64,000 nucleotides of DNA from Lineus longissimus (taxonomy: Eukaryota > Nemertea > Pilidiophora > Heteronemertea > Lineidae): assembly GCF_910592395.1 (NCBI RefSeq), contig NC_088312.1, forward strand, positions 21,583,292 to 21,647,291, read 5' to 3'. Below the pieces are notes generated by a model. It did no database searches and was not told the DNA's origin. It saw only the letters and a program-made list of their open reading frames with translations. Below are positions 14,204 through 41,775 of this stretch, in pieces (the first letter of the stretch is position 1; every line of letters begins with the position of its first letter). The position numbers were made by a program, and so were the translations under genes.

Positions 14204-17200
14204 GTGATCTTTAAAACAATGCTTTGATGTTTTAAAAGTAGACAGTTGAAAGAACAAAAAAATCCTGATTTCTTAGCAAATGATTCGATTGCAAAAGTTT
14301 TATTTTTTTACGTTAAAAGTCAGGTATGGTCTGACCGGAGGTATGTTCAGAGAATCTCATGATAGTCTGAAAGAACAATGATAAGAAATGCCATTATCGA
14401 GGCTGGAAGTGGTATTGGTTCTTTTTGATAAGTAATTATTTATGAGAAATTATATATTAAGTACTTATCACTCACCAACAGCCGGCGGAACCTTTGGTCC
14501 TGAAATGAAATTAAAAGGCTTTGATTTACCTATCTTCCTGGGATACCAACCAAGTTGAAAAAATGGGAATCTCCCATAAAAAATCAATCTGAACCGATCT
14601 CGATGATTCTCTACGATTGGGTATGGGCCTACGATAATCTGAAAATCTTGAAATAAATATGTTAATCAATCAATTAATTGAGATTGGGGTAACCATAGAA
14701 GAACTGTAGAAGATTGGTAAGGGATTCTCTTTTGTATATTTATATTGTCACTTTCATTAGCCATCTATCATGTCAATAGAATTGGATTGATTGACCCGTG
14801 GCTTTGTATGACCTGGAACACGGGCATTGCGATCCATCCAAGTTTCATGAGGTTGGCAGCATTTGGTTACTCACCCTCAGTTTTTATGATAATTATCCAT
14901 ATGATGTTTATCTCCGAGATTATTTTTGTGATCGAGAACGTGATTGTGATCTTGACGTATTCCGTGCCTATGTACAGTCTCCACCAAGCCACGTCAGTCG
15001 TCGTCCCGATGGCATAATAATAGAAATATATCTTCCACTCGACAGTAATGAATCGAATAATCGTGATAATTTCTTCCTTTTTCCCTGCTTCTATCTTATA
15101 GCCACCGATTATCCACAATGTACATGTCTGCCCCTTCTTTATATGGGTCGTGATCACCCATTTTATTTTTATGAATATTTGGTAAACATTAACTGTCGTC
15201 ATAGAGCACGTAAAGTAAGTTGTCGTGATCATCGTCGTGAAGTGTGTTACGATATCTGACTCCTGCTTGAATGTCAAGGTGTGAACTTCGCCACCGTTAT
15301 AATGCACAACGTAGAGTAGCAGGCCGCCTTGTCCGATTTTGAAGCTGCGACACAGAATCAGAATAAAGTAGAATACTTTGTAATAGGCATCCTTCCCTGA
15401 ATTCGTTGAACCGTCCCAGGTTATGATAAACTGAAATTTCTTGGTCACAAGGGTGAAACCTAATCCTGAAAACATAATTACGGCAGTTAAACCAATAATT
15501 CGTTGTAATATGCCTTGCAAATTATATGTACATGCACAAATTGTCAACTATGTCTACTATTCAGCCCTAGAGGGAGCGAGATAATTAATTGGAAGGAAAT
15601 TAATTTTCATCGCATATTTAACGATGCTTCTAGTCAGCCTACTGGTTACTTACATTTGTTAACGATAGCTAGGGATGAAGTGGCATGCACCATCCATAGA
15701 TTTTCAGTGATATTCTATTGATTGAAACGAATATTTTAGGTTTGAACGACCACACTGTGTTGGACGGCTATGATACTTCTACTTCACAGGTAAATAGCCT
15801 TTCTGTCAAAACAATATAAAGAGCTTACTCGAAGAAAGCTGAATTGACCTCTGTATAATATGAATTAAGGCGAATTACGTTGCATCGTCTTACCGTATAT
15901 CTTGAATTCTGCCACCCTTGTCGTCCACCAGGTGATCACCCATGTCTGTTGTATGGTGACAGTAGTGATGATGTACTTAGTATTGATAACGTCCTTCCAG
16001 AAGGTCATGTCAGTGTTTGACCCGATGGCGAAGTAATATATGCGGAACTTATAACTTATCAGTTGAATGTAGAGTGTGACCTGAGCTCTGAATTCCCATG
16101 ATGTTCCGCATGCGAATCCTCCCCACATAATCATGCCTCTGTAGGAAGAGAGAAACGCGTATGAGGAATATAGGGGCATAGTACTGGTAGTTTCATTGAT
16201 AAACCTTTGACCATGTTCTCTGAAGGACACATTTCCGAAATAAAGACAAGATGCTTGTTTTGAGTTTAGTACGTTGGTTACATACATTTCGTCTTGCTTA
16301 ATATTTTCCAGACACATCTAAGACCATAATTAAAATTTGGATATGGTCATCTGTCTAAAGAAGTCAAGTCCTGATACTGGTAGTTCAAGTATAGTAACAA
16401 ACCTTCCAGCATTTCCCCGGGAAAAACTTGTGTAAAAGGTGTGGATCTTCTTGAATATGGTCAGCAACTCGATCTTGGCCGACCCAAACTTGAATCCTTT
16501 GCATTGAGTTATGTATTCTGCTGACTTTGATGCCGTAAACCAGTCAAACACCTGAACACTTGATCCGGAGCAGTATACCAACTTGATCCGAAGGCTGTCG
16601 GAACCGAGGGTGAACGACTGGAGCATGAACACGAGGAAGTCGACGCCTTGCTTGAAGCCAGCACTACTGCTCGACGAGGAAGCATCCAGAATGAAGATCA
16701 AATCAAGTAAAAGAGTTTTCTTTGACCCTAGAATCCAAAAAAAGTTAATGAATCATGGCACTTGGTGAGACAGTTGCAAAAGAAGTAAGTCATGAGAACC
16801 GTGTGACTGTGGATTTGTCAGGGTCGTAACAACACCGCACATTGATTTGTCCAAAGTGTACCACCGGAGACTGGATTCATTCCATCAAGTGTACTAGTGA
16901 GCGCATCTCATCCTTTCATCTTCATAAATTATGCTCTTTTAAAATGGACTCTTTCAGTATGAAGAAGAATAACAAATTTGTCAATGCATACCTGTACTTG
17001 CAGACTCTCCATCTTTATTCCGACATTCGTCCTTCTTTCTGTATTGGCTGACGGACTTATAAGCACAGGTACCAGTTTTTTCGATTGTCACATCGATGAG
17101 CTTGTACTGTTTGTAGTTTGCCTCCGTGTGCTGAATACAGGCTTTGTCCACCCCCCTCCAGTCAACAGATTGACACGTCTTTTCCTTCTCGCACCAGTCT

Positions 17201-20200
17201 CTGCACTCCACTGCTGTGAACTGGTTCTTTCCCTTGATGTAATCTCCAGCTGCATGCGAATGCTTGTGCTTTAAGAACTCCATGCATTCTGATAAATAGA
17301 GAAATCCGATACAGATGTTGTGGGATATGGTTTTCACCATTTCTTCAGGGTTGTACTGCACCCATGAATACTGGTTTCATTTGGAATCTTGTGTACTTGA
17401 AGAGATCTTTTAAAAGGTTCTACCCGAAGCCATTTACATTTTAGTTCGCTTTATTTTGAAAACAAAGATATTTCAATTTTGTGGATAAGATGACTGACAC
17501 TAGCCTGGACGTGTGCCAATGGGTCACTTTCTACCAGTCATCCATCATATCTCGGGCATCGTCTGCCCAAAGGAGTATTCAGATAACGGATCTTTTTTAA
17601 AGATGGTCGTATCTTGGTACTCAGTTGTCAAAGCACATGCGTAACTCTGGATATATGACTGAGGAAGGTCACATCAACCGTTCCAATGTTTACGAGGTTG
17701 GAGAGAAAGAACCAGATTTAATTACTGCTCCGTTATTATTCACTATCAATGTTATTTCTTTAGGTTTGTATTATAAGCATCCTGCTCATATATTTGGAGA
17801 TCAATGGGAACTATTCTTGATGCGATACAAGGCGTATTGTAAATTTCATTTGTTGCAAAAACTAAAAAGTTTGTTATTAGCTGACATGTTTGAGTTGCAT
17901 AGGTTGGGCAAAATCCCGTGTTTTCAAATTGAGATTAGGGTTACCAGTATACTTACTGCTTGCTGGAGCGAATTGGGTATCTGAACCGTCGGGCTTGTTA
18001 CGTTCTTCTAAAAACACCAGAAATACCTCAGTTCAGTCTTTAGCGTCAAAGGAAACCATAAAGTATCATTGAAAACTGTTTGTAGGACAAAGCTTATACT
18101 GCGAACTCGTCTCTCAGCACCCCTAGGTTTTGGCGAAAATCTAACTGATCTCAATATGTTTCAATCCTTGCTAATTCAGCAATTATACCACAATTGAGAA
18201 TTTTCTGCCGTTATGTTGAATTAGAGATGCCAGTAACTGCATTGAAATGCTTGTGGATATAAAATCGCATTCTAACGGCCGTCTTATACACGATGCATTT
18301 CTCTCTACATGCAGTGTGCTAGGTTGTAAGACTCGATATCACCAGGGATGCAAGTGCAGTAGTCCTTGTCAGCAGTGGGTCATATTGAACGATCATAACA
18401 ACAAGACTTGGGCCTGGTTGCTCAAAGTATGTTATGTCACTAACTTAGCGTTAGCTTTAACTTGACGTTATCTCCTCCAGTAAAGGCATTTAGCCTTAAT
18501 GCTGAGTTAAAAGTAAGTCTAATACCGGGCCATGGTGTATGTTATCATAATTAACTGAACAATCCAGACAGGTTCTCCAGGGTAACTGATTCATGTACCT
18601 AATTTCATCACTGGTTGTACGTTGTACGTTGTTCAAAAAATATATAACATACATGTACAAGTAACACTTACTGCACGATGCCGCTGTGTTTGCTGAAAAA
18701 TGAACAGCGGATTAAACTTAAATATAATTATAACGTAGTGCGGGGCTCATGAACCTAGATGTATCAATAGACAGAGGGAAAACTCGTTATTGCTGACAGT
18801 CTAGTCATCACTGCGTTGTTCCCCAACTCCTGTATAGAAAGCGATACACCCCGCGGCATGTCACAGGCGGAGCGGCGACCTCTACATGCGTGAATCCCGT
18901 CTTGATTTTATTTAGAATATGATTCAGAACTCCCACAATCTTAAAGCTGTAGTTCAATTCAATATCATCAACTTACCTATATTTGGTGCCGGAGTTCCTG
19001 AAGCCTTATAATTTCCACCTAAAGTAAAACCAATACCATTAGCTAAACATCGACTTATCATGGTTAAAGCAATCAATTATATGACCATGCCGTATGCAAT
19101 ACGTTACGCAATATTTGCGAGTTATATCTTGTATTGTGAGAGAGCAGTAACATTATTACCAAAAAATATGTTAATTCTTTTTTGTCGGCTAGAAACTATG
19201 CTGTCAAGAAAGACAGCCACAGGCTAAAATGATGAGCAAAACGGGTTATGACTTTTAGCATTATTAGCATTGTTCATATTGTCAGAACTCAACACATGTT
19301 CGGAGATAACAAAACAATGTGAGTCTTATCTCAGCTCTTATTCAGTAATGCGTACATGTTTATAAGAGTCTTGTAGTGTTCTTTTATTTGACATTTTTGA
19401 CATGTTAAAATAAAGGATCGATTAGTTGTCATCCAACAACACCTGGCATCTAAGGTAGTTAATATTTCACAGTAGGCCCTACCATACCTGTGACGCGGCC
19501 TGCGTTTCCTTCTTTGACTGAAACACAAGAATAACATTTGTCATTTGCCTTTTCCAATAAATTTATGCTGGTCAATTCGTAATCAGATGAACAAGCTATA
19601 GTTTACGGTTAGCGTGCGCAGTTAACCTCACATGTCACCAATGAAGAGGATATTTTATGGTAGTCTTTAGGATATATACTTGACTTTTCCGAGTTTTGGT
19701 TCCAGAGAGATAGTTGCAAGAGACTGTATAATCATCATACTTTACTTGATAGCATTATCATGTAACAGAGGAAAAACATCAAGGTCCAACCGGGGATTGA
19801 ACACGGGACCTCTTGCTTATAAGGCCTTCACTCTACCGACTGAGCTAAAGGGAGTTTCCCCTCTAGCCTGGGCTGGTAGGAATGATGCCACCACTACATA
19901 CTCCCCCTGTTCGGGAAAGTTGTGTCCTCACAACCGGGTTCTTCCGTGATACAAAGGGTTAATTCATTATCCAAAGACACACCAGCATCAAAACAAATTA
20001 TTAGTACCCTTTTACCACGTTGGGCGCCAAATGTAACAGAGGAAAAACATCTAAGTCCAACCGGGGATTGAACCCGGGACCTCTCGCTTATAAGACCATC
20101 ACCGACTGAGCTAAAGGGAATTTTCCTCTAGCCTGGGCTAGTAGGAATGATGCCACCACTACAATCACAGCCCTCGAAATTGATTATTTTGAAGACAAAG

Positions 20201-23200
20201 CTTGAAAACGTACTTAGATAGAACAGTCTGACAAGAACTTTTTAATGATAATGCTAGCATACTTACTTGCCGTTCCGCCTGCTTCTTTAACTGATGAAAA
20301 GAAGGATGATACGTCAATGTAATTTTCGAAAGATCTCTTGGTTAACAGTTGGTATCGTATTTGTAAAAAGATTGCGTAGAATATGACATATTTTCGAATT
20401 ACACACCATCTTAACTATAGCCTGCTTCCGAAGCTGCAGTTTCGCTCCATGCCTCGGCTGTTGCTCATATAATCTTTTTGCAGACTTTTTCACGGCACTT
20501 TAGTTCATGACAGGAAGGGACGTGCTCTTAAAGCTACCTACCCCAAGCCTCAAATGCAGACCAATCACCGACCTTGACTAAAAAGGAAATATGATATCAA
20601 TGAGAAGTTTTTTAACTCCTTTTAAAAATAACTTGTGCAGATTAGGTATTAAATCTGTGTTTACATCTTGTATAGCGTATGCTGTAAATCCGGTCATGCC
20701 CCATCCGTGGTAGAGCCAAGATGAAGCGATTTAAGCACTCACTGGTGACGTTTCAACCCCTTTCACTGTTACCTCTTTAATATTTGTTTAAATTTTGGTC
20801 GGACCACTCCGCATTTGACAGTGGGAGCGACTCCCCCTGACTACATTGATTTGCAAAATTTCCAAACAGCATTTGTTAATAATGTTCTCGTTGACTCTCA
20901 AGTGTCCACTTGCTACATGTACTTTTTAACGCAAAAAACGAAGCTTCGCATTGTTAGTGGCTTATTGCACAACGAGCGCTGGACTGAAACTCATGCTATC
21001 AATTAAAGTGTAGGTAGGATTGCTATTTGTCTTGGCATCTTTTTTCATACTAACTGAGACAGTAGGTTCCCTTGTCCGTGTCTCCCTGTCGGCATTTCTC
21101 TCCCCCATTGATCAATTTTAAATCGCCCTTCTGTACCTTTATCTCTGCAACAGTTATCAAAGATTATTTAACACGTGCACGTTCACTCTTCGAGTACTTT
21201 GAATAAATGCAATGCTGGGCAACTTGAATGAGGAGTACACAAATACATTTAGTCCGACAGAATGGGTGCACTTAGAAACGTACGTAGCTAGCCTGAGAAA
21301 TGCGTACGCTTTTCAACATATCTGGCCTGATCAAGAGCGACTTTCTGGAGACAGGTAACTTTGTATTTGTATTTCTCAATTCAGCTAAGTATCATCTAAG
21401 AATGTTCAGAGTAAACAGATAAAGTGTATTTTCTTGTAACATACCTGTTACAGAGCTCGTGCCTCCCCCGCCTCCAGTTCCTGAAGCCTTATAATTTCCA
21501 CCTAAAGTAAAACCAATCCCATTTGCTAAACATCGGCTTATCATAGTTAAAGCGAATCAAATATATGACCATGCCGTATGCAATACGTTACGCAATATTT
21601 GCGAGTTATATCTTGTATCGTGAGAGAGCAGTAACATTATTATCAAAAAATATGTTAATTCTTTTTTGTCGGCTAGAAACTATGCTGTCAAGAAAGACAG
21701 CCACAGGCTAAAATGATGAGCAAAACGGGTTATGACTTTTAGCATTATTAGCATTGTTCATATTGTCAGAACTCAACATATGTTCGGAGATAACAAAACA
21801 ATGAGAGTCTTATCTCAGCTCGTATTCAGTAATGCGTACATGTTTATAAGAGTCTTGTGGTGTTCTTTTATTTGACATTTTTGACATGTTAAAATGAAGG
21901 ATCGATTAGTTGTCATCCAACAACACCTGGCATCTAGTTAATATTTCACAGTAGGCCCTACCATACCTGTGACGCGGCCTGCGTTTCCTTCTTTTACTGA
22001 AACACAAGAATAACATTTGTCATTTGCCTTTTCCAATAAATTTAAGCTGGTCAAATCGTAAGCAGATGAACAAGCTATAGTTTACGGTTAGCGTGCGCAG
22101 TTAACCTCACATGTCACCAATAAAGATGATATTTTATGGTAGTCTTTAGGATATATACTTGACGTTTCCGAGTTTAGGTTCCAGAGAGATAGTTGCAAGA
22201 GAATGTATAATCATCATACTTTACTTGATAGCATTATCACAGCCCCCGAAATTGATTATTTTGAAGGCAAAGCTTGAAACGTACTTGAATAGAACAGTGT
22301 GCCAAGACCTTTTTAATGATAATGCTAGCATACTTACTTGCCGTTCCACCTGCTGCTTTAACTGATGAAAAGAAGGATGATACGTCAATGTAATTTTCGA
22401 AAGATCTCTTGGTTAACAGTTGGTATCGTATGTGTAAAAAGATTGCGCATGAATATGACATATTTTCGAATTACACACCATCTTAACTATAGCCTGCTTC
22501 CGAAGCTGCAGTTTCGCTCCATGCCTCGGCTGTTGCTCATATAATCTTTTTGCAGACTTTTTCACGGCACTTTAGTTCATGACAGGAAGGGACGTGCTCT
22601 TAAAACTACCTACCCCAAGCCTCAAATGCAGACCAATCACCGACCTTGACTAAAAAGGAAATTTGATATCAATGAGAAGTTTTTTAACTCCTTTAAAAAA
22701 TAACTTGTGCAGATTAGGTATTAAATCTGTGTTTACATCTTGTATAGCGTATGCTGTAAATCCGGTCATGCCCCATCCGTGGTAGAGCCAAGATGAAGCG
22801 ATTTAAGCACTCACTGGTGACGTTTCAACCCCTTTCACTGTTACCTCTTTAATATTTGTTTAAATTTTGGTCGGACCACTCCGCATTTGACAGTGGGAGC
22901 GACTCCCCCTGACTACATTGATTTGCAAAATTTCCAAACAGCATTTGTTAATAATGTTCTCGTTGACACTCAAGTGTCCACTCGCTACATGTACTTTTTA
23001 ACGCAAAAAACGAAGCTTCGCATTGTTAGTGGCTTATTGCACAACGAGCGCTGGACTGAAACTCATGCCATCGATTAAAGTGAAGGTAGGATTGCTATTT
23101 GTCTTGGCATCTTTTTTCATACTAACTGAGACAGTAGGTTCCCTTGTCCGTGTCTCCCTGTCGGCATTTCTCTCCCCCATTGATCAATTTTAAATCGCCC

Positions 23201-34013: not shown

Positions 34014-34063
<50 letters not shown>

Positions 34064-37000
34064 CGTCGTCGTCCGTCGTCGTCCGTCGTCCGTTAGCAGG
34101 GCACGTTTCGTAACTGTTAAAGCTATTGAGTTGAAACTTGGTACACATGTACCCTTATGTAATGACACCTTGGAGACCAAGTTTCGGTCCGATTCGTTTC
34201 ATGGTTTGGCCACCAGGGGGCCAAACGTTAAAAGTGAAAATATGCAATATCTCCCTTAATAGTAGTCGGGAAATTTTGAAAAAAATATGGTAGGTACTTC
34301 TAGCAAAGGTGCATCATATATCCTCCGGGTTTTTGATTTGACCTCCTTTTCAAGGTCACAGAGGTCAAATGGTGTAAATTGGCCGTTAGGATGTAACGAT
34401 GGCACGTTTCTAAACTGCAATGGCTATTGATACCAAATTTGGTACACATTTACCCCTTAGTCAGGTGATCTTAGGGACCGAAGTTTGGTCCAATATGATT
34501 CACCACTTGTCCACCAGGGGGCAAAATCCAAAAACCTTAAAAATGTGATTATTCCTTAACTTCTTGCCCGATTGCCACCAATTTGATATCATGGGTACAT
34601 CTAACCACCATACAGTATATGTCACACAGTTTTTTAATTTGACCTTCTTGTCAAGGTCACAGAGGTCAAATGGCGTAAATTCGCCGTCAGGCCGTAACTA
34701 TGGCACGTTTCTTAACTGCAATGACTATTGATCACAAATTAAGTACACATGTACCCCTTGGTCAGGTGATCTTAGGTACCGAAGTTTGGTGCGATCTGAT
34801 TTGCCGTTTGGCCTCCAGGGAGGGGGCCAAATCCTAATCTCTTCAAAATGCCATTATTCCTAGTAATGACTTGCCCGATTGGCACCAATTTTATATCATA
34901 GGTACATCTAATTCTAACAACCATTCAATGTGTCACCCGGGTCTTCTTTGATTTGACCTACTTTTCAAGGTCACAGAGGTCGAATGTATTGTAAATTGGC
35001 CATTTTGGGGAAATTGTAATTGCTTGGACCTACATCAAACCTAACACTACATGACACAATACCATGCTCTTTATCCATCTTTCCTCCACATGAGGTGAGC
35101 ACAATGGCCCTGGCCATTTCATTTAGTCACAGCCACACCCGAAATCCATCCCAGTTTGCCCTATTTGTTCGTTTAAAATGACAATGGCGGAAAAACACGA
35201 GATCGAAGGGAGTCGTGGTTGGTGTGAGGTGACAGGGGGCATCCTACACTAACATGCCAGTCCAGTCGCTACAATAAACAACTCGCCTTTTTTAGTCACA
35301 GCCACACCCGAAATCCATCCCAGTTTGCTCTATTTGTGCGTTTTAAAAAGACAATGGCGGGGAAAAAACGAGATCCAAGGGGGTCACCGAAATCATCATC
35401 GTATGACAAATATGAAATAAGATATAGCTAAGAATAGGACTTTGCGGCCACCTGAAAGACGTTAAAGTAAAGAGGGTCACCCAACAATAGACGCTAAGAA
35501 TAAAGGGATCGCGCAACAGATTTTCTAAGCTTGGCTTTGAAACTCCAGGTAGTGAAGATATTTTTTATATATTGATATCTTTATTCGACATGTAAATTAC
35601 ATTTACATTTCTTGAAAAATAAATCATTAAGTTTGGTTTTAAACGCTCATTTACGTTCCCGGCCCATTAGCATTTTATTGACACTGCTTGATTTCAGTTA
35701 AAAACGTCTGAATTTCAGGTTGACCTTGACCTTTGACCCCGACCTTGACCTTGAATAAATTTCAAAAGGTGACTATCAGGTAGCGACCTAATACATCATA
35801 GGAATAGACATTGAAACCAGGTTGATACCACTTCGGAGCGCTCCAATCAGACAAAAACAAGGAGCGCATTCATGTCAAGATATTGCCTTTTGTTATTCAT
35901 TTCTAAAAAGCTACGGTTTAGACTATATACAGCTTTGCCATTTTGTGGACTGTCTTCCAATTTATCATCGGAGGAAATGAAATATTTCAGTTTCAAGCGA
36001 TCATCCCAACAAAGCAGTGTAGAATGACTAAAAACGAATGCATTGTTAACGCTTTGGTTCTTGCTCCTTATGATGTTGTGTCTTTCGTTGACGATTGTGA
36101 CGATGTTGGGATAGTACTGAGTTCATTATTTGGTGGAAGAAATGCTCTTAAAATCAGACGCTCATAACATACTTACCTATCTTTATATTTTTTGTTTTAC
36201 CTGATGAAAATGAATGATAACATTTCGGTGTATCATAAGATAATTTAAAGTGATACCATGTTTTAAAGCCAACAGCATTTGATCTTAAATAAGCAGAGAA
36301 GGCATTCATTAAATACAGATAATTCTGAATAGCTTATTCTCATAAATCATGGACGTGCCAGTTTTTGTATCCAGTGCAGATAAACAAGTGTGCCTTTGTT
36401 GTAACTAATGACAGAGAACTGCTAGATAATGTCTTGTAACGATCATACATTCAAGTGCCGTAGGCCTATCGTAATTCGTTATTTTGTGGAAAGAAATCAG
36501 TATTACAGCCATCATGGAGATCCATCACTTACCCCAGGCAACTAAATCGTTGTAGCTGGTGACTGAAAATGGTAGGTAATTCCCATTGTTAACTTGGAAT
36601 CACAACATCATACACGTAGTATTGTTGCAGTGGACAAAGCATAACCTGCACCCGGTTCGGTGCTTTACTTTTCAACCATCAGAAACTCAGTATTTTTATA
36701 TACGTACATCCTATTGGTTTTTGAAGAGTTCCCTGATTTCTTGCGCTACCAAGTATCAATACTGATTTGATGAGACTTGTGCAGGTATCTTCGTACATCT
36801 GGCTTTGTCGTTTACAATCTTGCCATGGCATGTTATAAAAGATACAAGCATGGAATCGTTGCGATGCCCGCCAAAACAATGGGTGATATGAATAAAGACT
36901 GGGAAATGGTTTTATCTATAACTCTACGTTCATTACACCAGGCCTTTCTGTACAACATTTGATTGAAAGTATTTGCTATAGACTTTATTCATATCAGCCA

Positions 37001-40000
37001 TTGCCTGAGTGACGTTGTGACCTAGATTTTCCCTGAGGGCTATATGACGAATGAGACACGACCCCTTCTAGTAATAGGAATATACTGTCGATGTCCCAAT
37101 GTTAGTTTTGTTGACAATGGGAAGTATTTCAGTAAAATATTATGACAACGATATATATATTGGCTAAAGTGGGATTAATTGTTGCATTTCTTGAATGAGA
37201 ATATGGTAAATGTCATGGTCAATTCAAATCCGGGGAAAACATGAATGGTATGGTTTTCCATTACTGTTTCTTTTCATAGGCATACTTACCCTCGCAATTA
37301 TTATTTTTCTCTTTTGTTCCACTTGGACATGTGCTTCCAGCTCCAATCTTGGCGAACTCAGACTTGGGTAGGAAGTCCACTAAAGTAGGAAATTTTGATT
37401 CTTGAATTCTATTGGCAGCGAAAAGATGACTAGTCATTTAACATAAAATCGACTGTCGTCATCGATATGCTTTGAAACCGCTTGAACTTGGTGACTGTCA
37501 ATATTCACCTCATAATATGTGCACAACATACCCTCAGGTCAGGAGACCTCGTAAAAATTGGCTGGCAGAGGGACAAGCTTGCGGTCCTTTTTCTGGCAAG
37601 TAGCGGCGAAAACGATAACCCTTGCCAATTTCATAAATGTTGCGATATTGACTTCCTTGGTGTAGGTTGAGGAAATGATATTAATGAGTTTTGATTCTTT
37701 ACAATGAATCACAATATTGTAGTTGACGTGAATGCCAAGGCTGATAAGTTGAGTGGCGAGAAATTTCTCCGTCTGAAAAGCCATCTGAAAAAGTCCTCTG
37801 TGCGACATAGCATCGGTCTCTTACTCACCCTGCGTTTGAGTTGTCCCACCTCAAATGTGGAAAAATTTGAATTAAATATCGTATCATTGATTTGCCTAAA
37901 TGATACCAACATACAGGTACGTATCGCAAACGCCAATATGCCTCCGAATTATAAACAAAAAACTGAAAGTTCGAGCCCTATTAGTATCTCCTCCGATGCG
38001 GCAAGTTGATCAGCCGCCAGCTAGTTAAATGAATAGTACATAACTGTATACATATTTTACTTGCCACGCTCCTGTCATATGAAGTATGAGGTTGGTAGTA
38101 ACGTCTCAGACCCACATTCGGCAGGCTGTTTCACTTGGGGTGACACATGATGAGCAAACTTTACATGTTATCAAGAATTTGTAAAGACTAGTCTTTTCAT
38201 AGATTTTTGATTCTTGATTTATAGTATCTGTATGAAACGACTCATACTGAAGTACTCAAAACTGCTGGAAACCTGTTGGCCTACAACGACGTTTTCAAAT
38301 GCATATTGGCATGTGAAATATGACTTACTTTGCTGCGATGTCGAACTGCTGCTACCTTGAACTGGAAAAAAGTCAATCATATTTAATATTATTTGCATTT
38401 TCAAACATATAGTTTTAGCGTGGATGACAAACTACGCTCTATTAGAGAGCTCTTGAAAAACCCTCCATAATAGTTTTCGGCTAACACTAGCACGTAAAGA
38501 TTCAGGACTTTTAAACCTTTTTAAAAGATTTTATGAATTGGATGACTGCCGTTCAATGACTGGCAATGCCCCCGAGTTATGTCGCAGCACTTTTGTCTGA
38601 TCCAGATGATGAAGATCAGCCCGGCTTGGTCTTTTTCAATTTTAGATCTTCCGCCAAAATACAAACATTATATATCTAAATTGTATTTTTATTCAAAAAT
38701 CCCAATAATTATGAAGTGTAATCTTACCAGTTTGTGTCGCTGGAAATACAGATTTTCAAATAGAGAAGTATGGTATATCGTCAAAATGGCACTCAGAGAA
38801 TCGTGTTCACCATGAGCTACATTCATTGTTTTTTTAGTGCTTTCGATCTACAATATAATAGACTGACCGTGGCCATAGATGTCGCCATGAGACTACTCAG
38901 CTCTCATTGATGGCTTGTTCTTACATTTTAAGCATCGTATCTACATGTACAATTACCACTGGCCCTCCCAATCTGCTATGAAAATGACCCTCCAGAAAAA
39001 AGAAACGATAAGGTAAAAAGAACCAAGACAACCGGCTAAAATACATCCCCTTAAATGAGTCTAGTAGTATATATAGCCGCTTTTGCAGTCGTAGGATATG
39101 ATTATGATAGTATATCTTACTTTCTTACCTAATATCGATGCCCATTATACAGCTGAATATTTTTGATGCTGCCCAAGATATCAATTAGCATATCAATACT
39201 TACATGAACTTGTACTTGCTTCTAACTTAATGCCTATGTTTTTTCCTTGAGCTGATGAAAAAAAACCCGCTATATTTTTTACGTAGATATTTACAAATTG
39301 CCATTATTTTTCCTCATAAGAAGGATGTATAATTCAGTGATTGCCGTCGGTTTCTTGATAATTGGTGGGCGCAGGGCTATATGCGCGCGACTTTACCGCA
39401 GGATGAGATGCATTGGTCTGCTCTATGACTTGGTATTGGGCAGAACACTTAGCTCGATCCGACGCTCACTCTTGCTGTGCAATATTTTTTTTGTTTAAAA
39501 ATTATAAGTCTTTTCTTTTAGTTTTTGACTCAGAGAACACAATTATATTGACTTAAAAAATTCCCCAATTGGGAAGAAGGCCTTCTGTGTTTTTTAAAAA
39601 TAATTTGTACGATATCTGTCTTCGGTCATCTATGCAGAATATTGTCGTTCGAATCTGGTCCCGGATTTTATTCAACACGATCATAGAATGAAATAAATTT
39701 TGTAGTTATTTCAGTCGTAGCCTTATGGCAGATTCGACAAAAATAGCCATCAAAAAGCATTAAAAATACATACCCCATGAATTGAATTTACCCACGTCAG
39801 TAACTGAAAATGAGAGTAGAAAGTGTTCCAATAAGTCTATTTTGATAATAATGCCCATGATTAAAAAGTAGCTTTCGTGTAACACTTTACCTACTCTTAA
39901 TTTTATTGCGGCTCTTACTCAAAAAGTAGGTATGGAGAAATTCTAAATAAAATCCCGATAGACCTATATGCAGCTTTTTTCTTAGGTGCGGTTAAAATCT

Positions 40001-41775
40001 TTTGTAAATTTGGTGTAAATGACAGTTCGAATAGGCTTCAAGCGTGTTTAGCACTAGAAATTGCTTTTTAAGGACTTCTTGGTCGTAATGACGTCATTGC
40101 AAGGCTATCCAATCAAATCTCGGTATAGGTTCGTTAAGAATAAAGTGTTGGACATTTTTTCGCGGGGTCTGTGGTCAATCTGTAACCTCATAAATACTTC
40201 TGATGTACACTCATCAAAGAAAGTTAAGGACCACTTTTTATATTTAACATATTTTTTTACAGCACATATTAAGGACCAGTAGGACCTGTATGACCTCCAA
40301 GACACAGTAATCAATTTCACATGTTGTTTGTTCCAGTTGTTGCATAACTTCTTTCTAAACTTGTCACAACCTGAAAATGGGTGTTTTTGGTGTGTCAGCT
40401 GACCATATAAAGTGGTACAAAAGTCCATGCAAGTGCTTTTCCTTGCATTTCCCACCAAGCTCAGGCAGCATTCTGACAAGAGAGATGCCTAGATGCCACT
40501 TGAGTGAAGTAGAGGTTGCACGAGCCATAGGGATGCTGGAAGCTGGCTTCAGTCAGCGACGAGTAGCTGAGATGATGGGTGTGTCTCACAGTGTCATCGA
40601 CACCGGGAGACAGGGCGATACTCAGAGAGACCCCGTACTGGCCGCCCATCAGCAACAACTGCGAGGGATGACCGCTACTTAGTGACTCTGTGTCGTCGCA
40701 ACCGCTTCAGTAGTGCTCGCAGACTCAATAACCAATTCACTGCTGCAACTGGGGTGACGGTTTCAAATCAAACCATCCGTAACCGACTTCACAGAGCCGA
40801 CATCCATGCCAGGAGGCCACTGCAATGCATCCCATTAACCCCTGCTCACAGAAGAATCCGTCTCAATTGGGCTCGTGATCATGTGGGATGGAGCCACCAG
40901 CAATGGCGCCGTGTTCTGTTCTCAGATGAGAGCAGATTCAGCCTGGACCACAATGATGGACGTGTTAGAGTCTGGAGACAATCTGGAGTCTGGTCCTTAA
41001 TATGTGCTGTGAAAAAAATATGTTAAAAATAAAAAGTGGTCCTTAACTTTCTTTGATGAGTATATGTATGCCGCCCCTCCGATTTGAACAAAGTCATTAT
41101 TGGGCCTTACCTTCGCAACTCGTCCCAACTGTTTTTGTAAATCCACTCGGACATGTTTTAACATCATTTCCTCCGGCCTTCTGTATATCTGCCAAAGAGA
41201 TCACGGGTGGGCCTGAAAATAGAGAAGGTGTTGCGAATAGGTTTATCAACTTGCTTTAGTTTTAGTTTCAAAAGTTCTTTTATTTCTGAACATGCAGAGG
41301 AAATTGTACCTGCCGTAGATATTCCAACCAATGCATACAGCATATGCATCCTCAGAACTCTGGCTGACAGAGGACGATGCCAGCTTTATATAATAACTAC
41401 GGCTTGCAAGGCAGATGAATACTCTGAAACACCTTGAAGATGCCAATGGATGTAAACGAATTGTTCCATTCGATATTTGTGCTTCTGAGTACACCACATT
41501 ATTTGTTATTTAGGAAGATTGCAGCTGAATATAACTTTTAAATGGCACTTTTGAATGCGTTTTCAGAATCGAGGTCAAAAGAAGTAGTTTTTGGCATCAA
41601 TGACGTAAACAGTGGTGGATTTTCGCTAATGTTTTGCAGTCGATCCGAAGTGGCGGTTGTGTACATACCGCTTCCACTTATAGTCTGAGTCGCACCATTC
41701 GTGGCTGTGATAAGAAGACTTACTCCCATGAGGCCTTGGAAGGCCCACATGGTGAGAAGAGTCATGTTCTAGACC
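1..41775 (-). CDS. Giant secreted modular protein gene: signal peptide, microexons, PAN, 2x vWFA, TTKTP repeat array (3' end outside window)
   Basis: Seen: a minus-strand series of exons with consensus acceptors and donors, listed separately below. From the signal-peptide exon to the array nearly all are phase 1 at both ends (2 nt + codons + 1 nt), and joining them in order gives no stop. Order: signal peptide, four modules of short exons (Cys-Pro-Ser exon, Trp exon, Lys-rich exon, Gly/Ser/Thr exons), three copies of a three-exon Gly/Thr cassette, linker microexons, PAN-like exon, vWFA1 (two exons), vWFA2 (one exon), linker, then 28 Thr/Pro/Lys repeat exons. Known: signal peptide plus PAN and vWFA domains are typical of extracellular adhesion or matrix proteins, and Thr/Pro-rich repeats of mucin-like stalks. 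Inference: a secreted adhesive, mucus or matrix protein, perhaps immune-related. The first residue of each exon depends on the last base of the exon before it, so skipping can change junction residues as well as length. Last exon, stop and any C-terminal domain lie left of position 1. Confidence 0.8.
4686..8783. repeat. Higher-order duplication of a four-unit block in the array
   Basis: The units starting at 4686, 5196, 5709 and 6222 recur at 6735, 7245, 7758 and 8271, an offset of 2049 bp (510+513+513+513). Private variants recur in the same order: a shared TTCATAGCACATACC change, CGCGGACAGACC, GAGATCCGAAAATGGGGTCTTTG and ATACTATCTC in the second unit. The fourth units differ slightly. This is a recent block duplication by unequal exchange. 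Confidence 0.85.
14476..14499 (-). CDS. Exon 39: linker microexon before the repeat array
   Basis: 24 nt, acceptor TTTCATTTCAG and donor GTTG|GTGAGT, phase 1-1. Encodes GPKVPPAV, a Pro/Val linker that joins in frame to the first array exon (GGKTTKTPGG). Confidence 0.7.
14875..15465 (-). CDS. Exon 38: vWFA domain 2 (single exon, degenerate MIDAS)
   Basis: 591 nt, acceptor TATGTTTTCAG and donor GAGG|GTGAGT, phase 1-1, 197 residues. Strand order follows vWFA: KKFQFIITWDGSTNS (MIDAS position, DxSxN rather than DxSxS), SFKIGQGGLLLYVVHYNGGE, TLWIIGGYKIE (TDG position, Asp lost), IYFYYYAIGTTTDVAWW, then EYVKITITFSITKIISE (the usual last strand and helix). Both metal-coordinating motifs are altered, so a metal-independent binding or structural role is likely. 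Unlike vWFA1 it has no internal intron. The domain is unusually rich in Ile, Thr, Tyr and Trp. Confidence 0.75.
15654..15668 (-). CDS. Possible 15-nt microexon between vWFA1 and vWFA2
   Basis: 15 nt between CATCCCTAG and GTAAGT, phase 1-1, encoding (A/G)IVNK. Very short, so it may be chance. Omitting it does not break the frame. Confidence 0.25.
15894..16138 (-). CDS. Exon 37: vWFA domain 1, C-terminal half
   Basis: 245 nt, acceptor TCTCTTCCTACAG and donor ACG|GTAAGA, phase 2 in and phase 1 out. Joined to exon 36 through an Arg codon it reads GRGMIMWGGFACGTSWEF (TDG-strand position, with the usual Asp replaced), then RIYYFAIGSNTDM, the typical vWFA 'AIG' strand, and a final helix region. The MIDAS is therefore only partly conserved: DxSxS is intact but the Asp of the TDG loop is missing, so metal binding is uncertain. 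Confidence 0.75.
16403..16727 (-). CDS. Exon 36: vWFA domain 1, N-terminal half
   Basis: 325 nt, acceptor TTTGGATTCTAG and donor GGAAG|GTTTGT, enters in phase 1 and leaves in phase 2. Encodes DLIFILDASSSSSSAGFKQG..., matching the first strand and MIDAS motif (DxSxS: D-A-S-S-S) of von Willebrand factor A domains, then the amphipathic FLVFMLQSFTLG helix and a RIKLVYCSG strand. With exon 37 it makes a domain of about 190 residues, the usual vWFA size. Confidence 0.78.
16992..17288 (-). CDS. Exon 35: PAN/apple-like domain
   Basis: 297 nt, acceptor TTTCTCTATTTATCAG and donor ACAG|GTATGC, phase 1-1, 99 residues. Cysteines fall as CMEFL..., VECRDWCEKEKTC, KACIQH, GTCAY and DECRN. The AVECRDWC stretch, with a Cys a few residues on and later paired Cys, is the usual PAN/apple signature, here with seven cysteines. 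PAN domains bind protein or carbohydrate in secreted proteins. It sits between the repeat exons and the vWFA domains, consistent with one extracellular protein. Alternative: another short Cys-rich lectin-like fold. A profile search would decide. Confidence 0.72.
17957..17980 (-). CDS. Exon 34: 24-nt linker microexon (tentative)
   Basis: 24 nt, donor AGCA|GTAAGT and acceptor GACGGTTCAG with a poor pyrimidine tract, phase 1-1. Encodes (N)TQFAPA before the PAN-like exon. Confidence 0.5.
18672..18692 (-). CDS. Exon 33: 21-nt microexon
   Basis: 21 nt between TTCATTTTTCAG and GTAAGT, phase 1-1. Encodes ANTAASC. Confidence 0.6.
18977..19018 (-). CDS. Exon 32: cassette A, exon 3 with diverged 3' half
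   Basis: 42 nt, acceptor TTTTACTTTAG and donor ATAG|GTAAGT, phase 1-1. Encodes GGNYKASGTPAPNI. The first nine residues match exons 26 and 29, but the glycine run is replaced by PAPNI and a different donor, so this is the boundary of the triplicated block. Confidence 0.72.
   Translation of the reverse strand: MEIIRLQELRHQI
19488..19517 (-). CDS. Exon 31: cassette A, exon 2
   Basis: 30 nt, phase 1-1. Encodes (I/V)KEGNAGRVT. Confidence 0.74.
19761..20163 (-). mobile_element. TRIM-type miniature LTR retrotransposon with a tRNA-like sequence in each LTR
   Basis: Two direct repeats, 19761-19898 and 20032-20163, flank a 133-bp interior. On the minus strand each repeat starts TGTAGTGG and ends GTTACA. 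The interior begins TT then TGGCGCCCAACGTGG (20029-20015), the shape of a retroviral-type primer binding site, and ends in a purine tract, AACAGGGGGAGTA. A 4-bp target duplication ATCA flanks it (19757-19760, 20164-20167), and the empty site is present in the paralogous cassettes B and C. No coding capacity. Each LTR contains a tRNA-like stretch with A box (TAGCTCAGTCGG) and B box (GTTCAATCC). Known: TRIMs are non-autonomous LTR elements, and plant Cassandra TRIMs carry 5S rRNA sequence in the LTR. A tRNA-like LTR would be an analogous case. Confidence 0.8.
20267..20290 (-). CDS. Exon 30: cassette A, exon 1
   Basis: 24 nt, phase 1-1. Encodes VKEAGGTA. It lies just upstream (in transcription) of the TRIM insertion at 19761-20163, which is absent from cassettes B and C. 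Confidence 0.74.
21445..21501 (-). CDS. Exon 29: cassette B, exon 3 (Gly/Ser/Thr)
   Basis: 57 nt, phase 1-1. Encodes GGNYKASGTGGGGGTSSVT, one residue different from exon 26. Confidence 0.75.
21967..21996 (-). CDS. Exon 28: cassette B, exon 2
   Basis: 30 nt, phase 1-1. Encodes (I/V)KEGNAGRVT, as exon 25. Confidence 0.74.
22338..22361 (-). CDS. Exon 27: cassette B, exon 1
   Basis: 24 nt, phase 1-1. Encodes VKAAGGTA, same splice sites as exon 24. Confidence 0.74.
23517..23573 (-). CDS. Exon 26: cassette C, exon 3 (Gly/Ser/Thr)
   Basis: 57 nt, acceptor TTTTACTTTAG and donor ACAG|GTATGT, phase 1-1. Encodes GGSYKASGTGGGGGTSSVT. Confidence 0.75.
24045..24074 (-). CDS. Exon 25: cassette C, exon 2
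   Basis: 30 nt, acceptor TTGTGTTTCAG and donor ACAG|GTATGG, phase 1-1. Encodes (I/V)KEGNAGRVT. Confidence 0.74.
24417..24440 (-). CDS. Exon 24: cassette C, exon 1
   Basis: 24 nt, acceptor TTTTCATCAG and donor GCAA|GTAAGT, phase 1-1. Encodes VKAAGGTA. First of three near-identical 2.07-kb cassettes in transcription order. Confidence 0.74.
25547..25612 (-). CDS. Exon 23: expanded Gly/Ser/Thr exon of module 4
   Basis: 66 nt, phase 1-1, acceptor CATTCCAG and donor ACAG|GTATAT. Starts VEASGTTGGGSS and ends TGGGSSTSVT. Compared with exon 18 it carries an extra six-residue (STGGGS-type) internal repeat, so repeat number changes inside an exon as well as between exons. Confidence 0.75.
25665..26385. 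repeat. 116-bp minisatellite, left block
   Basis: About six copies of a 116-bp unit (TTTGAATATCTTCAGTC, TTTGACTTCGTAGTTG, ... TTTAAACATAGTGGG). It lies in the intron between exons 22 and 23 and is interrupted at 26386 by an interspersed repeat. Confidence 0.85.
26386..27908. mobile_element. (GTC)n-bearing interspersed repeat inserted into the minisatellite
   Basis: Starts GGCTCACCGTAGG and ends TACGGTGAGC followed by ACAATGGCCCCTGGCCG, so the ends carry a short inverted repeat (GCTCACCGTA). Contains a CGTCGTC run near 26420 and repeated motifs (TGGCACGTTTCTCAACC, GGCCACCAGG, CAAGGTCGCAGAGGTC) shared with 33960-35124 and 54590-55705. No transposase seen. Non-autonomous element of unknown family. 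Confidence 0.7.
27909..28830. repeat. 116-bp minisatellite, right block
   Basis: About eight further copies of the same 116-bp unit, resuming exactly after the inserted element. One or two more copies occur at about 30940-31090 in the duplicated neighbouring block. Confidence 0.85.
28991..29029 (-). CDS. Exon 22: Gly/Ser exon of module 4
   Basis: 39 nt, phase 1-1. Encodes VKPGASGGSVTIT, identical in protein to exon 17, although the codons differ (CCGGTGGATCA against AGGGGGCTCA). This silent divergence favours protein-level constraint. Confidence 0.74.
29287..29310 (-). CDS. Exon 21: Lys-rich exon of module 4
   Basis: 24 nt, phase 1-1. Encodes (L)KGKKGTA, with donor GCAG|GTACGA as in exon 16. 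Confidence 0.72.
29627..29662 (-). CDS. Exon 20: Trp exon of module 4
   Basis: 36 nt, phase 1-1. Encodes (L)SASKWNEFLTW. Poly-T acceptor and TGGC|GTGAGT donor as in exon 15. Confidence 0.75.
30131..30217 (-). CDS. Exon 19: Cys-Pro-Ser exon of module 4
   Basis: 87 nt, phase 1-1, same splice sites as exon 14. Encodes EYMISLTELGKIKV, then TTCPSMSTKKGNDCA. It differs from exon 14 mainly at Arg/Met and Ile/Val, so the 28.8-30.3 and 31.1-32.5 kb blocks are recent paralogues. Confidence 0.78.
30835..30882 (-). CDS. Exon 18: Gly/Ser/Thr exon of module 3
   Basis: 48 nt, acceptor TATTCCAG and donor ACAG|GTATGT, phase 1-1. Encodes VEASGTTGGGSTTSVT. Shares its SVT-G ending and flanks with exons 23, 26 and 29. 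Confidence 0.75.
31460..31498 (-). CDS. Exon 17: Gly/Ser exon of module 3
   Basis: 39 nt, acceptor TTATTTCAG and donor ACAG|GTTGGC (weaker GT context, conserved in the paralogue exon 22), phase 1-1. Encodes VKPGASGGSVTIT. Confidence 0.7.
31754..31777 (-). CDS. Exon 16: Lys-rich exon of module 3
   Basis: 24 nt, acceptor TTTTTTCTCCGTCAG and donor GCAG|GTACGA, phase 1-1. Encodes (L)KSKKGTA. Paralogous to exon 21. Confidence 0.72.
32087..32122 (-). CDS. Exon 15: Trp exon of module 3
   Basis: 36 nt, poly-T then CAG acceptor and TGGC|GTGAGT donor, phase 1-1. Encodes (L)STSKWNEFLTW. Paralogous to exon 20, with Ala replaced by Thr. Confidence 0.75.
32372..32458 (-). CDS. Exon 14: Cys-Pro-Ser exon of module 3
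   Basis: 87 nt, acceptor TTTAAAACAG and donor GCTC|GTAAGT, phase 1-1. Encodes EYRISLTELGKIKI, then TTCPSMSTKKGNDCA. Nearly identical to exon 19 of module 4. Same (I)SL.EL.KI...TCPS...C pattern as exons 2 and 8. Confidence 0.78.
32974..32997 (-). CDS. Exon 13: Thr-rich microexon
   Basis: 24 nt, acceptor ATTTTACAG and donor GAAG|GTAAGA, phase 1-1. Encodes (E/K)TTTTVTE, a mucin-like Thr run closing module 2. Confidence 0.68.
33364..33375 (-). CDS. Exon 12: 12-nt microexon (tentative)
   Basis: 12 nt between CTCATTTCAG and GTAAGT, phase 1-1. Encodes (I/V)KMS. Consensus splice sites and phase are the only evidence. Confidence 0.45.
33694..33711 (-). CDS. Exon 11: 18-nt microexon
   Basis: 18 nt between TTATTCCAG and GTGAGT, phase 1-1. 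Encodes EKVNGK. It is separated from exon 10 by an intron enlarged by a (GTC)n repeat element at 33960-35124. Confidence 0.55.
33960..35124. mobile_element. (GTC)n-bearing interspersed repeat, copy 2
   Basis: Begins TTAGCTCACCTCTTAGCAG then AGGTGAGCTTA (a short hairpin), has a long CGTCGTC run (34015-34095), and ends ATGAGGTGAGCACAATGG then CCCTGGCCATTTC. Near-identical to 54590-55705. Flanked by a duplicated sequence of about 150 bp (33810-33958 and 35150-35290). Lies in the intron between exons 10 and 11. Confidence 0.75.
36177..36200 (-). CDS. Exon 10: Lys-rich exon of module 2
   Basis: 24 nt, acceptor TTTTCATCAG and donor ATAG|GTAAGT, phase 1-1. Encodes GKTKNIKI, in the position of the KGKKGTA exons of modules 3 and 4. 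Confidence 0.7.
36533..36562 (-). CDS. Exon 9: Trp exon of module 2
   Basis: 30 nt, acceptor TTTTCAG and donor GGG|GTAAGT, phase 1-1. Encodes VTSYNDLVAW, the same length and terminal Trp as exon 3. Confidence 0.72.
37290..37379 (-). CDS. Exon 8: Cys-Pro-Ser exon of module 2
   Basis: 90 nt, acceptor CTTTAG and donor GAGG|GTAAGT, phase 1-1. Encodes VDFLPKSEFAKIGAGS then TCPSGTKEKNNC. It matches exon 2 in the K(I)G...TCPSG...C spacing and opens the second module. Confidence 0.78.
37829..37849 (-). CDS. Exon 7: 21-nt Gly/Thr/Gln microexon (tentative)
   Basis: 21 nt between TTCCACATTTGAG and GTGAGT, phase 1-1. Encodes (S/G)GTTQTQ. The acceptor is GAG rather than CAG, so the call is weaker, but composition and phase fit its neighbours. 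Confidence 0.45.
38329..38361 (-). CDS. Exon 6: Ser/Gln-rich exon
   Basis: 33 nt, acceptor TTTTTTCCAG and donor AAA|GTAAGT, phase 1-1. Encodes VQGSSSSTSQQ, a low-complexity Ser/Gln linker in the position of the Gly/Ser/Thr exons of modules 3 and 4. Confidence 0.7.
38728..38739 (-). CDS. Exon 5: 12-nt microexon (tentative)
   Basis: 12 nt between TTTCCAG and GTAAGA, phase 1-1, encoding (S)TQT after exon 4. Supported only by splice consensus and compatible phase. Confidence 0.45.
39204..39251 (-). CDS. Exon 4: Lys/Ser/Thr exon
   Basis: 48 nt, phase 1-1, acceptor TTTTTTTTCATCAG and donor CAT|GTAAGT. Encodes AQGKNIGIKLEASTSS. Its start resembles the Lys-rich third exon of the other modules (GKTKNIKI, KGKKGTA). 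Confidence 0.7.
39774..39803 (-). CDS. Exon 3: Trp exon of module 1
   Basis: 30 nt, phase 1-1, TTTTCAG acceptor and GGG|GTATG donor. Encodes VTDVGKFNSW. It lies directly after the Cys exon and ends in Trp, as do the equivalent exons of modules 2-4. Confidence 0.7.
40208..41062 (+). mobile_element. Non-autonomous Tc1/mariner-type transposon
   Basis: Terminal inverted repeats of about 75 bp (ACTCATCAAAGAAAGTTAAG..., read inward from 40209 and from 41061) are flanked by TA dinucleotides, the Tc1/mariner target. It sits in the intron between exons 2 and 3. The body holds the remains of a transposase (see next entry). Confidence 0.85.
40485..41000 (+). pseudogene. Truncated Tc1-like transposase
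   Basis: Starts MPRCHLSEVEVARAIGMLEA with the helix-turn-helix FSQRRVAEMMGVSHSVI, then breaks: after about residue 40 the frame reads DTGRQGDTQ and stops. A second frame from 40682 encodes LCRRNRFSSARRLNNQF and the first catalytic region, LFSDESRFSL. The segment with the remaining catalytic acidic residues is deleted and runs straight into the right inverted repeat. It cannot encode an active enzyme. Alternative: a deletion derivative mobilised in trans. Confidence 0.85.
41111..41212 (-). CDS. Exon 2: Cys-Pro-Ser exon of module 1
   Basis: 102 nt, TTTTCAG acceptor and GAAG|GTAAGG donor, phase 1-1. It encodes 34 residues including PPVISLADIQKAGG and TCPSGFTKTVGTSC. The pattern (I/V)SL.(E/D)(L/I).K(I/A) followed by TCPS...C recurs in exons 8, 14 and 19, marking the start of each of four modules. 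No known domain recognised. Confidence 0.75.
41669..41775 (-). CDS. Exon 1 (first coding): signal peptide
   Basis: An acceptor (TTTCAG) precedes position 41775, so a 5' UTR exon must lie upstream. The ATG is at 41765-41763. The peptide opens MTLLTMWAFQGLMGVSLLIT, followed by ATNGATQTISGS: a short polar start, a hydrophobic core and a small-residue region, which is a classical signal peptide with likely cleavage near ATNGA. The donor G|GTATGT leaves phase 1, matching all downstream exons. The coding part is 97 nt. The ATG is chosen because it is the first in the exon and places the hydrophobic segment at the N terminus. Confidence 0.8.

Follow-up and report, generated by a model that had tools for sequence, protein, structure and literature searches.

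Organization of the Locus

We examined a stretch of 64,000 nucleotides from the nemertean Lineus longissimus (NCBI RefSeq assembly GCF_910592395.1, contig NC_088312.1, positions 21,583,292 to 21,647,291 of the forward strand), referred to here as the window, with positions counted from its first letter. An earlier note, made from these letters, had drawn attention to positions 14476..41775 and proposed a gene built almost wholly of microexons that share a single intron phase. Our sequence model of the 64-kb window, to which all exon counts below refer, contains 72 exons, every one of them on the minus strand: 44 are located at 14476-41765, and one further exon of 54 or 57 nt lies in each of 28 tandem units of ~512 bp at 209-14073. 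The predicted product consists, in order, of a leader, seven cysteine/tryptophan (Cys/Trp) modules with microexon linkers, a PAN domain, two VWA-type domains (VWA1 and VWA2) and an array rich in threonine, proline and lysine (Thr/Pro/Lys). Within 14476-41775, 40 of the 44 exons measure 12-102 nt (counting the leader by its 97-nt coding part), 32 are at most 66 nt, and the introns of this non-array part of the model range from 249 to 3378 nt.

Sixty-nine of the 71 exons downstream of the leader have a length that is a multiple of three and are symmetric, phase 1-1. The other two, at 16403-16727 and 15894-16138, each encode one half of VWA1 and jointly form one 1-1 unit; the phase-2 intron that splits them is the only intron in the model outside phase 1, and every module border is in phase 1. 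Joined together, the exons give a chain of 1603 codons with zero stops, partly by construction because the exons were picked for phase 1-1. The ~33 tiny exons described in the earlier note, phase 1 at every module border, and the lack of a stop from signal peptide to array are therefore borne out, with the reservation just given for the open chain and with the intron inside VWA1, away from any module border, as the sole exception to the phase rule. Its range holds for the exons that it encloses, but ends just before the array and so missed the 28 further microexons there.

The leader, whose donor is in phase 1, was read by eye as a signal peptide, making a secreted product, as had been suggested, plausible. 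The first coding exon begins at 41775 behind a good AG acceptor, and a non-coding exon further upstream is therefore probable. The least certain exons are 39204-39251 and the single-copy 12-nt exons at 38728-38739 and 33364-33375, all of which we regard as doubtful. A candidate exon at 31931-31957 was rejected, as its duplicate near 29490 carries 7 extra bases. Much of the gene would probably escape automatic annotation.

Phase-Blind Detection of Exons

We scanned the minus strand of 14-42 kb, without regard to phase, for the best non-overlapping acceptor-donor intervals of 9-330 nt scoring at least 14 bits, with generic metazoan splice-site weights. Of the 45 intervals returned, 30 have a length divisible by three (binomial p 5e-6), and the remaining 15 include the exon of the leader as well as parts of the VWA domain. 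Of the 30 symmetric intervals, 21 can be read through in at least one frame; phase 1 is open in every one of these, phase 0 as well in 11 and phase 2 as well in nine. The other nine are closed in every frame and hence are not exons as bounded, being wrong pairings or introns. Changing the cut-off to 13, 15 or 16 bits gave 23/23, 20/20 and 18/18 open intervals in phase 1, respectively. The 21 phase-1-open intervals are not independent, and a manual count reduces them to ~15 families once recent duplicates are collapsed.

A first-order Markov null yields 1.1 phase-1-open intervals on average, with a maximum of five in 60 runs. At 14 bits, the plus strand of 14-42 kb has one open interval out of 12 symmetric ones and none in phase 1, the minus strand of 42-64 kb has three out of five with one in phase 1, and the plus strand of 42-64 kb has one out of seven with none in phase 1. 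The same holds for the shortest pairs: at 9-60 nt and at least 14 bits, 34 of 48 pairs on the minus strand of 14-42 kb are phase 1-1 open (overlapping pairs counted), compared with 0/5 on the plus strand of that region and with 2/11 and 0/9 on the minus and plus strands of 42-64 kb, and a third-order null has a mean of 1.8 and a maximum of six in 100 runs. Symmetric phase-1-open intervals therefore far exceed both chance and controls.

Modules and Domains of the Predicted Protein

The Cys/Trp module, of ~50 residues, occurs seven times, each time as a Cys exon (87-102 nt) and a Trp exon (30-36 nt) with linker microexons. Modules 1, 2, 3 and 5 are related at the protein level, apart from pair 1-5: in tests against 2000 shuffled alignments, module pairs 1-2, 2-3 and 3-5 outscored every shuffle, pairs 1-3 and 2-5 were reached by four and three shuffles, respectively, and pair 1-5 did not stand out, as 97 of the 2000 reached its score. 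Two cysteines and a tryptophan (C, C, W) are invariant across six of the seven modules aligned. No Pfam family scored above its cut-off for this module in the joined-protein query.

The PAN exon alone matches Pfam PAN_1 (6.4e-5, 23.1 bits, above the cut-off of 21.4); in a joined query of 690 amino acids the same family scores 20.7 bits, just below the cut-off. The Pfam score of VWA1 is 33.1 bits for exon 1a alone and 37.6 bits in the joined query, against a cut-off of 23.8, and the second half of the domain gave no Pfam match when queried alone. VWA1 and VWA2 are paralogous (BLASTP 2e-9, 23% identity). The borders of all three domains coincide with phase-1 introns, PAN and VWA2 each occupying one exon and VWA1 two exons with outer phases of 1. 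Among solved structures, the nearest to VWA1 is the multi-VWA collagen VI alpha 3 chain 9han_C (4e-18, two stretches summed), and single-domain von Willebrand factor and collagen VI chains reach only 0.01 to 0.4. Structure matches for two joined modules (best 0.11) and for PAN (best 0.39) were weak, mostly to antibody chains, and were set aside as spurious. Two Pfam matches below cut-off were likewise dropped, namely Self-incomp_S1 on VWA2 (0.014) and GldM_3rd (4e-4, with no stretch of its own). Scans of viral contigs for VWA2 and for the array-exon pattern returned no match, and a limited search of the open-licence literature turned up no description that we recognized as this gene. Judging from the domains and composition, the product may be a matrix, mucus or adhesive glycoprotein.

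Duplicated Blocks and the Tandem Array

A five-exon block is present as the segmental copies A3/A4 and B5-B7, and the three B blocks are near-identical at ~2 kb each. Between A3 (M3-k3b) and A4 (M4-k4b) there are 12 exon differences, eight of which fall on third positions (p 0.019) and which change four residues. The third-position share becomes 11/17 once the equal-length exons of B5/B6 and B6/B7 are added (p 0.008), or 11/18 with the single k3c/k4c difference included (p 0.014). Exon gaps are multiples of three: k3c and k4c differ by 18 nt, and the kc exons of B5 and B7 by 15 nt. Intron gaps between duplicated blocks measure 1, 2, 5, 7 and 13 nt, plus 3 and 9. In B5/B6, exons differ less than introns (2/237 versus 31/1565). 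Exons differed by 12% in the block comparison of B6/B7, but the four exons of equal length show 0, 0, 2 and 1 differences when counted again, and we therefore ascribe the 12% to the 3' half of k7c, which is non-homologous.

The 28 units of the array are near-identical, with exons of a few types, and the encoded array is 30% T, 22% P and 22% K. In an alignment of 27 units, all 13 exon gaps measure 3 nt, although they need not be separate events, and all three intron gaps measure 1 nt. Leaving aside the first four units, 9 of 57 exon columns and 47 of 401 flanking columns vary. At each of the 43 variable sites that they share, units T13-T15 agree with T17-T19, and the stretch 4201-6092 matches 6250-8141 without a difference (at least 1,892 bp at an offset of 2,049 bp; units T13-T16 versus T17-T20). 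Beyond the perfect copy, at 4000-4199, 9 of 200 bases differ. Unless the assembly created it, the perfect copy reflects a recent duplication of nearly four units and indicates that the array grows by multi-unit duplication.

Table 1. Modelled exons and the tandem array, in the order of the predicted product
Feature	Position	Strand	Description	Basis
Leader	41669..41765	-	Putative signal peptide, beginning with ATG at 41765; coding portion of the first coding exon; phase 1 at its 3' end	Judged by eye
M1	41111..41212	-	Cys-module exon, 102 nt, 1-1	
W1	39774..39803	-	Trp-module exon, 30 nt, 1-1	
k1a	39204..39251	-	Linker exon, 48 nt, doubtful; sole exon ending in T	
k1b	38728..38739	-	12-nt microexon, single copy, less certain	
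k1c	38329..38361	-	33 nt	
M2	37290..37379	-	Cys-module exon, 90 nt; weak acceptor	
W2	36533..36562	-	30 nt	
k2a	36177..36200	-	24 nt	
k2b	33694..33711	-	18 nt	
k2c	33364..33375	-	12 nt, single copy, less certain	
k2d	32974..32997	-	24 nt, Thr-rich	
M3	32372..32458	-	87 nt	
W3	32087..32122	-	36 nt	
k3a	31754..31777	-	24 nt	
k3b	31460..31498	-	39 nt	
k3c	30835..30882	-	48 nt, Gly/Thr/Ser linker	
M4	30131..30217	-	87 nt, duplicate of M3	
W4	29627..29662	-	36 nt	
k4a	29287..29310	-	24 nt	
k4b	28991..29029	-	39 nt; alternative in-frame donor would yield 29012-29029	
k4c	25547..25612	-	66 nt; 18-nt in-frame gap relative to k3c	
M5	25203..25292	-	90 nt; weak donor	
W5	24692..24727	-	36 nt	
k5a	24417..24440	-	24 nt	
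k5b	24045..24074	-	30 nt	
k5c	23517..23573	-	57 nt, Gly-rich linker	
M6	23127..23216	-	90 nt; weak donor	
W6	22614..22649	-	36 nt	
k6a	22338..22361	-	24 nt	
k6b	21967..21996	-	30 nt	
k6c	21445..21501	-	57 nt	
M7	21055..21144	-	90 nt; weak donor	
W7	20542..20577	-	36 nt	
k7a	20267..20290	-	24 nt	
k7b	19488..19517	-	30 nt	
k7c	18977..19018	-	42 nt	
k7d	18672..18692	-	21 nt	
k7e	17957..18007	-	51 nt	
PAN	16992..17288	-	PAN/apple-domain exon, 297 nt, 1-1	Pfam PAN_1
VWA1, first half	16403..16727	-	Phase 1 to 2	Pfam VWA 8.4e-8
VWA1, second half	15894..16138	-	Phase 2 to 1	No Pfam match alone; paralogy with VWA2
VWA2	14875..15465	-	VWA2-like domain, single 591-nt exon, 1-1	BLASTP to VWA1
k8	14476..14499	-	Linker exon, 24 nt	
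Tandem array	209..14073	-	28 units of ~512 bp; one phase 1-1 exon of 54 or 57 nt per unit, encoding a Thr/Lys/Pro-rich repeat	

Intron Contents and Neighbouring Sequences

A Tc-type transposase fragment (Pfam HTH_Tnp_Tc3_2, 1.9e-22) lies at 40571-41026 in the M1-W1 intron, on the opposite strand. The intron between k4b and k4c holds 116-bp tandem repeats at 25668-26385 (6.2 copies) and 27906-28874 (8.4 copies). Two copies of a segment that resembles a tRNA by eye, possibly a short interspersed element, are found inside an intron at 19800-20120; ARAGORN called no tRNA in the window. Upstream of the gene and head to head with it, the plus strand encodes an AMP-binding enzyme at 43404-44762 (Pfam 6.3e-56). 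The minus strand carries open reading frames for a reverse transcriptase at 46222-47295 (RVT_1, 1.4e-33) and for a LicD-family protein at 57547-58371 (Pfam 7.8e-9). An intronless G protein-coupled receptor reading frame occupies 47918-49021; nine relatives score E 0.001 or better, among them two proteins of Lineus longissimus (49% and 46% identity) as well as Joint Genome Institute proteins at up to 73%.

Origin of the Gene and Alternative Explanations

The explanation that we favour, and consider likely, is that a single gene of this spiralian animal encodes a large modular protein, secreted and of a mucin- or matrix-like kind, and that the gene grew by tandem duplication of intron-bounded segments. 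The ancestor would have been a secreted protein with its first introns in phase 1. Only phase 1-1 pieces with a length divisible by three could then be added without breaking the frame, and every module border would be in phase 1 as a result. Repeated gain and copying of such intron-bounded pieces would lengthen the gene, and its tail, a basic Thr/Pro-rich array, would be extended by multi-unit copying. The exon anatomy of the sequence model, its symmetry, the duplications, and the PAN and VWA1 domains assigned by Pfam are features of the locus as we find it; what we infer is that one transcript spans it, that the product is secreted and acts in adhesion or mucus, and that most exons are included constitutively while some are optional cassettes.

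Several observations weigh against this explanation. Exons of A3/A4 diverge no less than their introns (12/186 versus 41/845), although the exon differences are mostly at third positions. Intron by intron the counts are 56/249, 5/309 and 6/255, the first probably inflated by placement of a 205-nt gap. For the divergence of the A3/A4 exons (32372-32458 versus 30131-30217, and k3b/k4b), conversion from another paralogue is one possibility. Diversity is also greater in the array exons than in the array introns (0.068 versus 0.032), mainly because two exon types segregate. Since neither the A3/A4 nor the array exons are slower than introns, the case for coding constraint rests on codon position and indels and not on rate. 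Some single-copy microexons could be false, with ~1-2 expected by chance, and the perfect copy of 1,892 bp may be a product of misassembly. The array continues past the start of the window, placing the 3' end of the gene outside it. The VWA2 exon alone matches no Pfam family above cut-off, its fold as predicted without an alignment has a predicted local distance difference test score of 35, and a homologue search with it gave 51 candidates, none at 0.001. A search with residues 34-1078 of the joined protein gave 8000 candidates with none at 0.01, where low-complexity words may have crowded out true relatives.

The earlier note had read the locus as a splicing-based diversity generator, in which microexons and modules would serve as cassettes in many combinations and give rise to many isoforms and junction residues. 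The frame-neutral structure behind this proposal stands: skipping or duplication of any exon or block retains the frame, the two VWA1 halves only together, and 890 of the 901 upstream-downstream junction pairs examined in the non-array model give no stop, the other 11 all having the doubtful exon 39204-39251 as donor. That the first residue of an exon depends on its upstream partner is also correct, as 23 of the 38 single-exon skips examined change the next residue; this effect, though, arises at any phase-1 or phase-2 intron. Isoforms have, moreover, been reported in passages on schistosome microexon genes (MEGs) and on tropoelastin (PMC10526429, PMC7947355). However, class 1-1 growth alone already predicts the symmetry, which is a general rule for exon-shuffled extracellular proteins and by itself is therefore no pointer to a diversity generator. 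Most microexons have good splice sites; a donor of 0.3 bits in each of M5, M6 and M7 and an acceptor of 3.0 bits in M2 are the weak ones. TGC near the acceptor marks regulated neural microexons, and of the 43 non-array exons after the leader, M5, M6 and M7 alone have TGC within 15 nt upstream of the acceptor. The weak sites thus lie on Cys-module exons, which makes these better candidates for regulated cassettes, if there are any, than the exons of 12-24 nt. For isoform diversity, which is possible, the weak donors of M5-M7 are the most specific lead. Site strength tends to rise as exons get shorter in the 26 families up to 102 nt long (rho -0.46, p 0.019), but the trend is not significant when all 30 families are taken (rho -0.24, p 0.19), nor in the 14 short families with homology support (rho -0.32, p 0.26). 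The remaining short exons were found through their strong sites, and we draw no conclusion from this trend. The duplicated exons, including the 28 of the array and those of the three B blocks, are near-identical and would therefore provide length variation rather than sequence variety; for the same reason, mutually exclusive, Dscam-like splicing of the array is not favoured. Taken together, we regard a splicing-based diversity generator as unlikely. A MEG-like combinatorial locus that evolved independently in this free-living nemertean we consider distinctly unlikely; in it, ~40 phase 1-1 microexons and module exons and the 28-unit array would be sampled differently by each transcript, regulation would act mainly on M5-M7 with their weak donors, and split codons would further vary the junction residues.

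Diversity, if there is any, may instead reside in the DNA, with the array and the 2-kb blocks forming a coding variable number tandem repeat whose copy number differs between alleles. The 28 near-identical units, the perfect copy of at least 1,892 bp between T13-T16 and T17-T20, and the three near-identical B blocks all fit this idea, which is a real possibility although we put it at somewhat short of even, since it rests on one haplotype and the array may hold an assembly artefact. It is compatible with growth of a single gene by duplication rather than opposed to it. The microexon modules, the PAN/VWA part and the Thr/Pro array could alternatively belong to two or three neighbouring genes that we have wrongly joined, as introns of up to 3378 nt lie between the parts. 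This is quite improbable given that each modelled border carries on in phase 1 and stop-free, and that one leader-like exon was noticed, albeit without a systematic search. Fortuitous splice-like sites or a dead gene also have to be considered, given that exons as short as 12 nt may turn up by chance, but the controls and nulls, the 1603 open codons, the third-position bias and the indels in multiples of three make this extremely improbable.

If the chain is right, the single gene that we favour would be an extreme case of growth in an animal secreted protein, with exons down to 12 nt acting as freely copyable units because nearly all of its introns share one phase. The locus would offer a clean setting in which to ask whether frame-symmetric microexon chains serve isoform diversity or are merely left over from duplication; a further addition is its repeated Cys/Trp module, for which no Pfam family passed the cut-off.

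Comparison with Known Systems

Class 1-1 symmetry is given as a rule for shuffled modules of extracellular animal proteins in a passage of PMC8001218, which also states that introns at signal-peptide borders and in glycine-rich linkers are preferentially of phase 1. The present gene resembles the class 1-1 modular extracellular proteins described by Patthy in its symmetric 1-1 module borders, its glycine-rich linkers and its PAN and VWA domains, and may also do so in the phase-1 intron after its putative leader. It is unlike them in that most of its pieces are linkers of 12-66 nt, far below domain size, and in that its repeated Cys/Trp module matches no Pfam family above cut-off. Exons of the tropoelastin gene (ELN) are also phase 1-1. 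Tropoelastin, as portrayed in part of PMC7947355, has one exon per domain and, in human, 34 exons, alternative splicing and 13 isoforms. Being a secreted protein of low complexity with known cassette isoforms and a separate exon for each domain, it is nearest in spirit to our locus. Unlike tropoelastin, the nemertean gene has PAN and VWA domains and a Thr/Pro/Lys array. Elastin is marked by hydrophobic domains and by Lys-Ala/Lys-Pro cross-linking domains; on reading our translation by eye, we noticed neither hydrophobic repeats of that type nor KA cross-linking ones.

Schistosome MEGs are characterized in a section of PMC10526429 by many short exons of 6-81 bp, mostly multiples of three, long introns and a secreted product, with 10-20 exons of which the majority are 15 bp, and with isoforms that arise as central exons are alternatively spliced. 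In the nemertean gene, 32 of the 44 non-array exons are likewise short at 66 nt or less and are spread among introns of 249-3378 nt, and its product is likewise putatively secreted, whereas the total of at least 72 modelled exons, none of them 15 bp, departs from the MEG pattern, as do the recognisable domains and the nemertean host. The I-band/PEVK region of titin, on the account in an extract of PMC11040099, includes a long run of repeat-coding exons that splicing may omit. A long run of repeat-coding exons is common to both genes, but titin is an intracellular muscle protein with demonstrated splicing regulation, and we found no sequence relation between the two. With collagen VI and von Willebrand factor the gene shares the VWA domain, but it has no collagen helix in the modelled part and its VWA2 is very diverged. 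We judge that this gene works like other class 1-1 modular genes, and that what is new is its richness in microexons.

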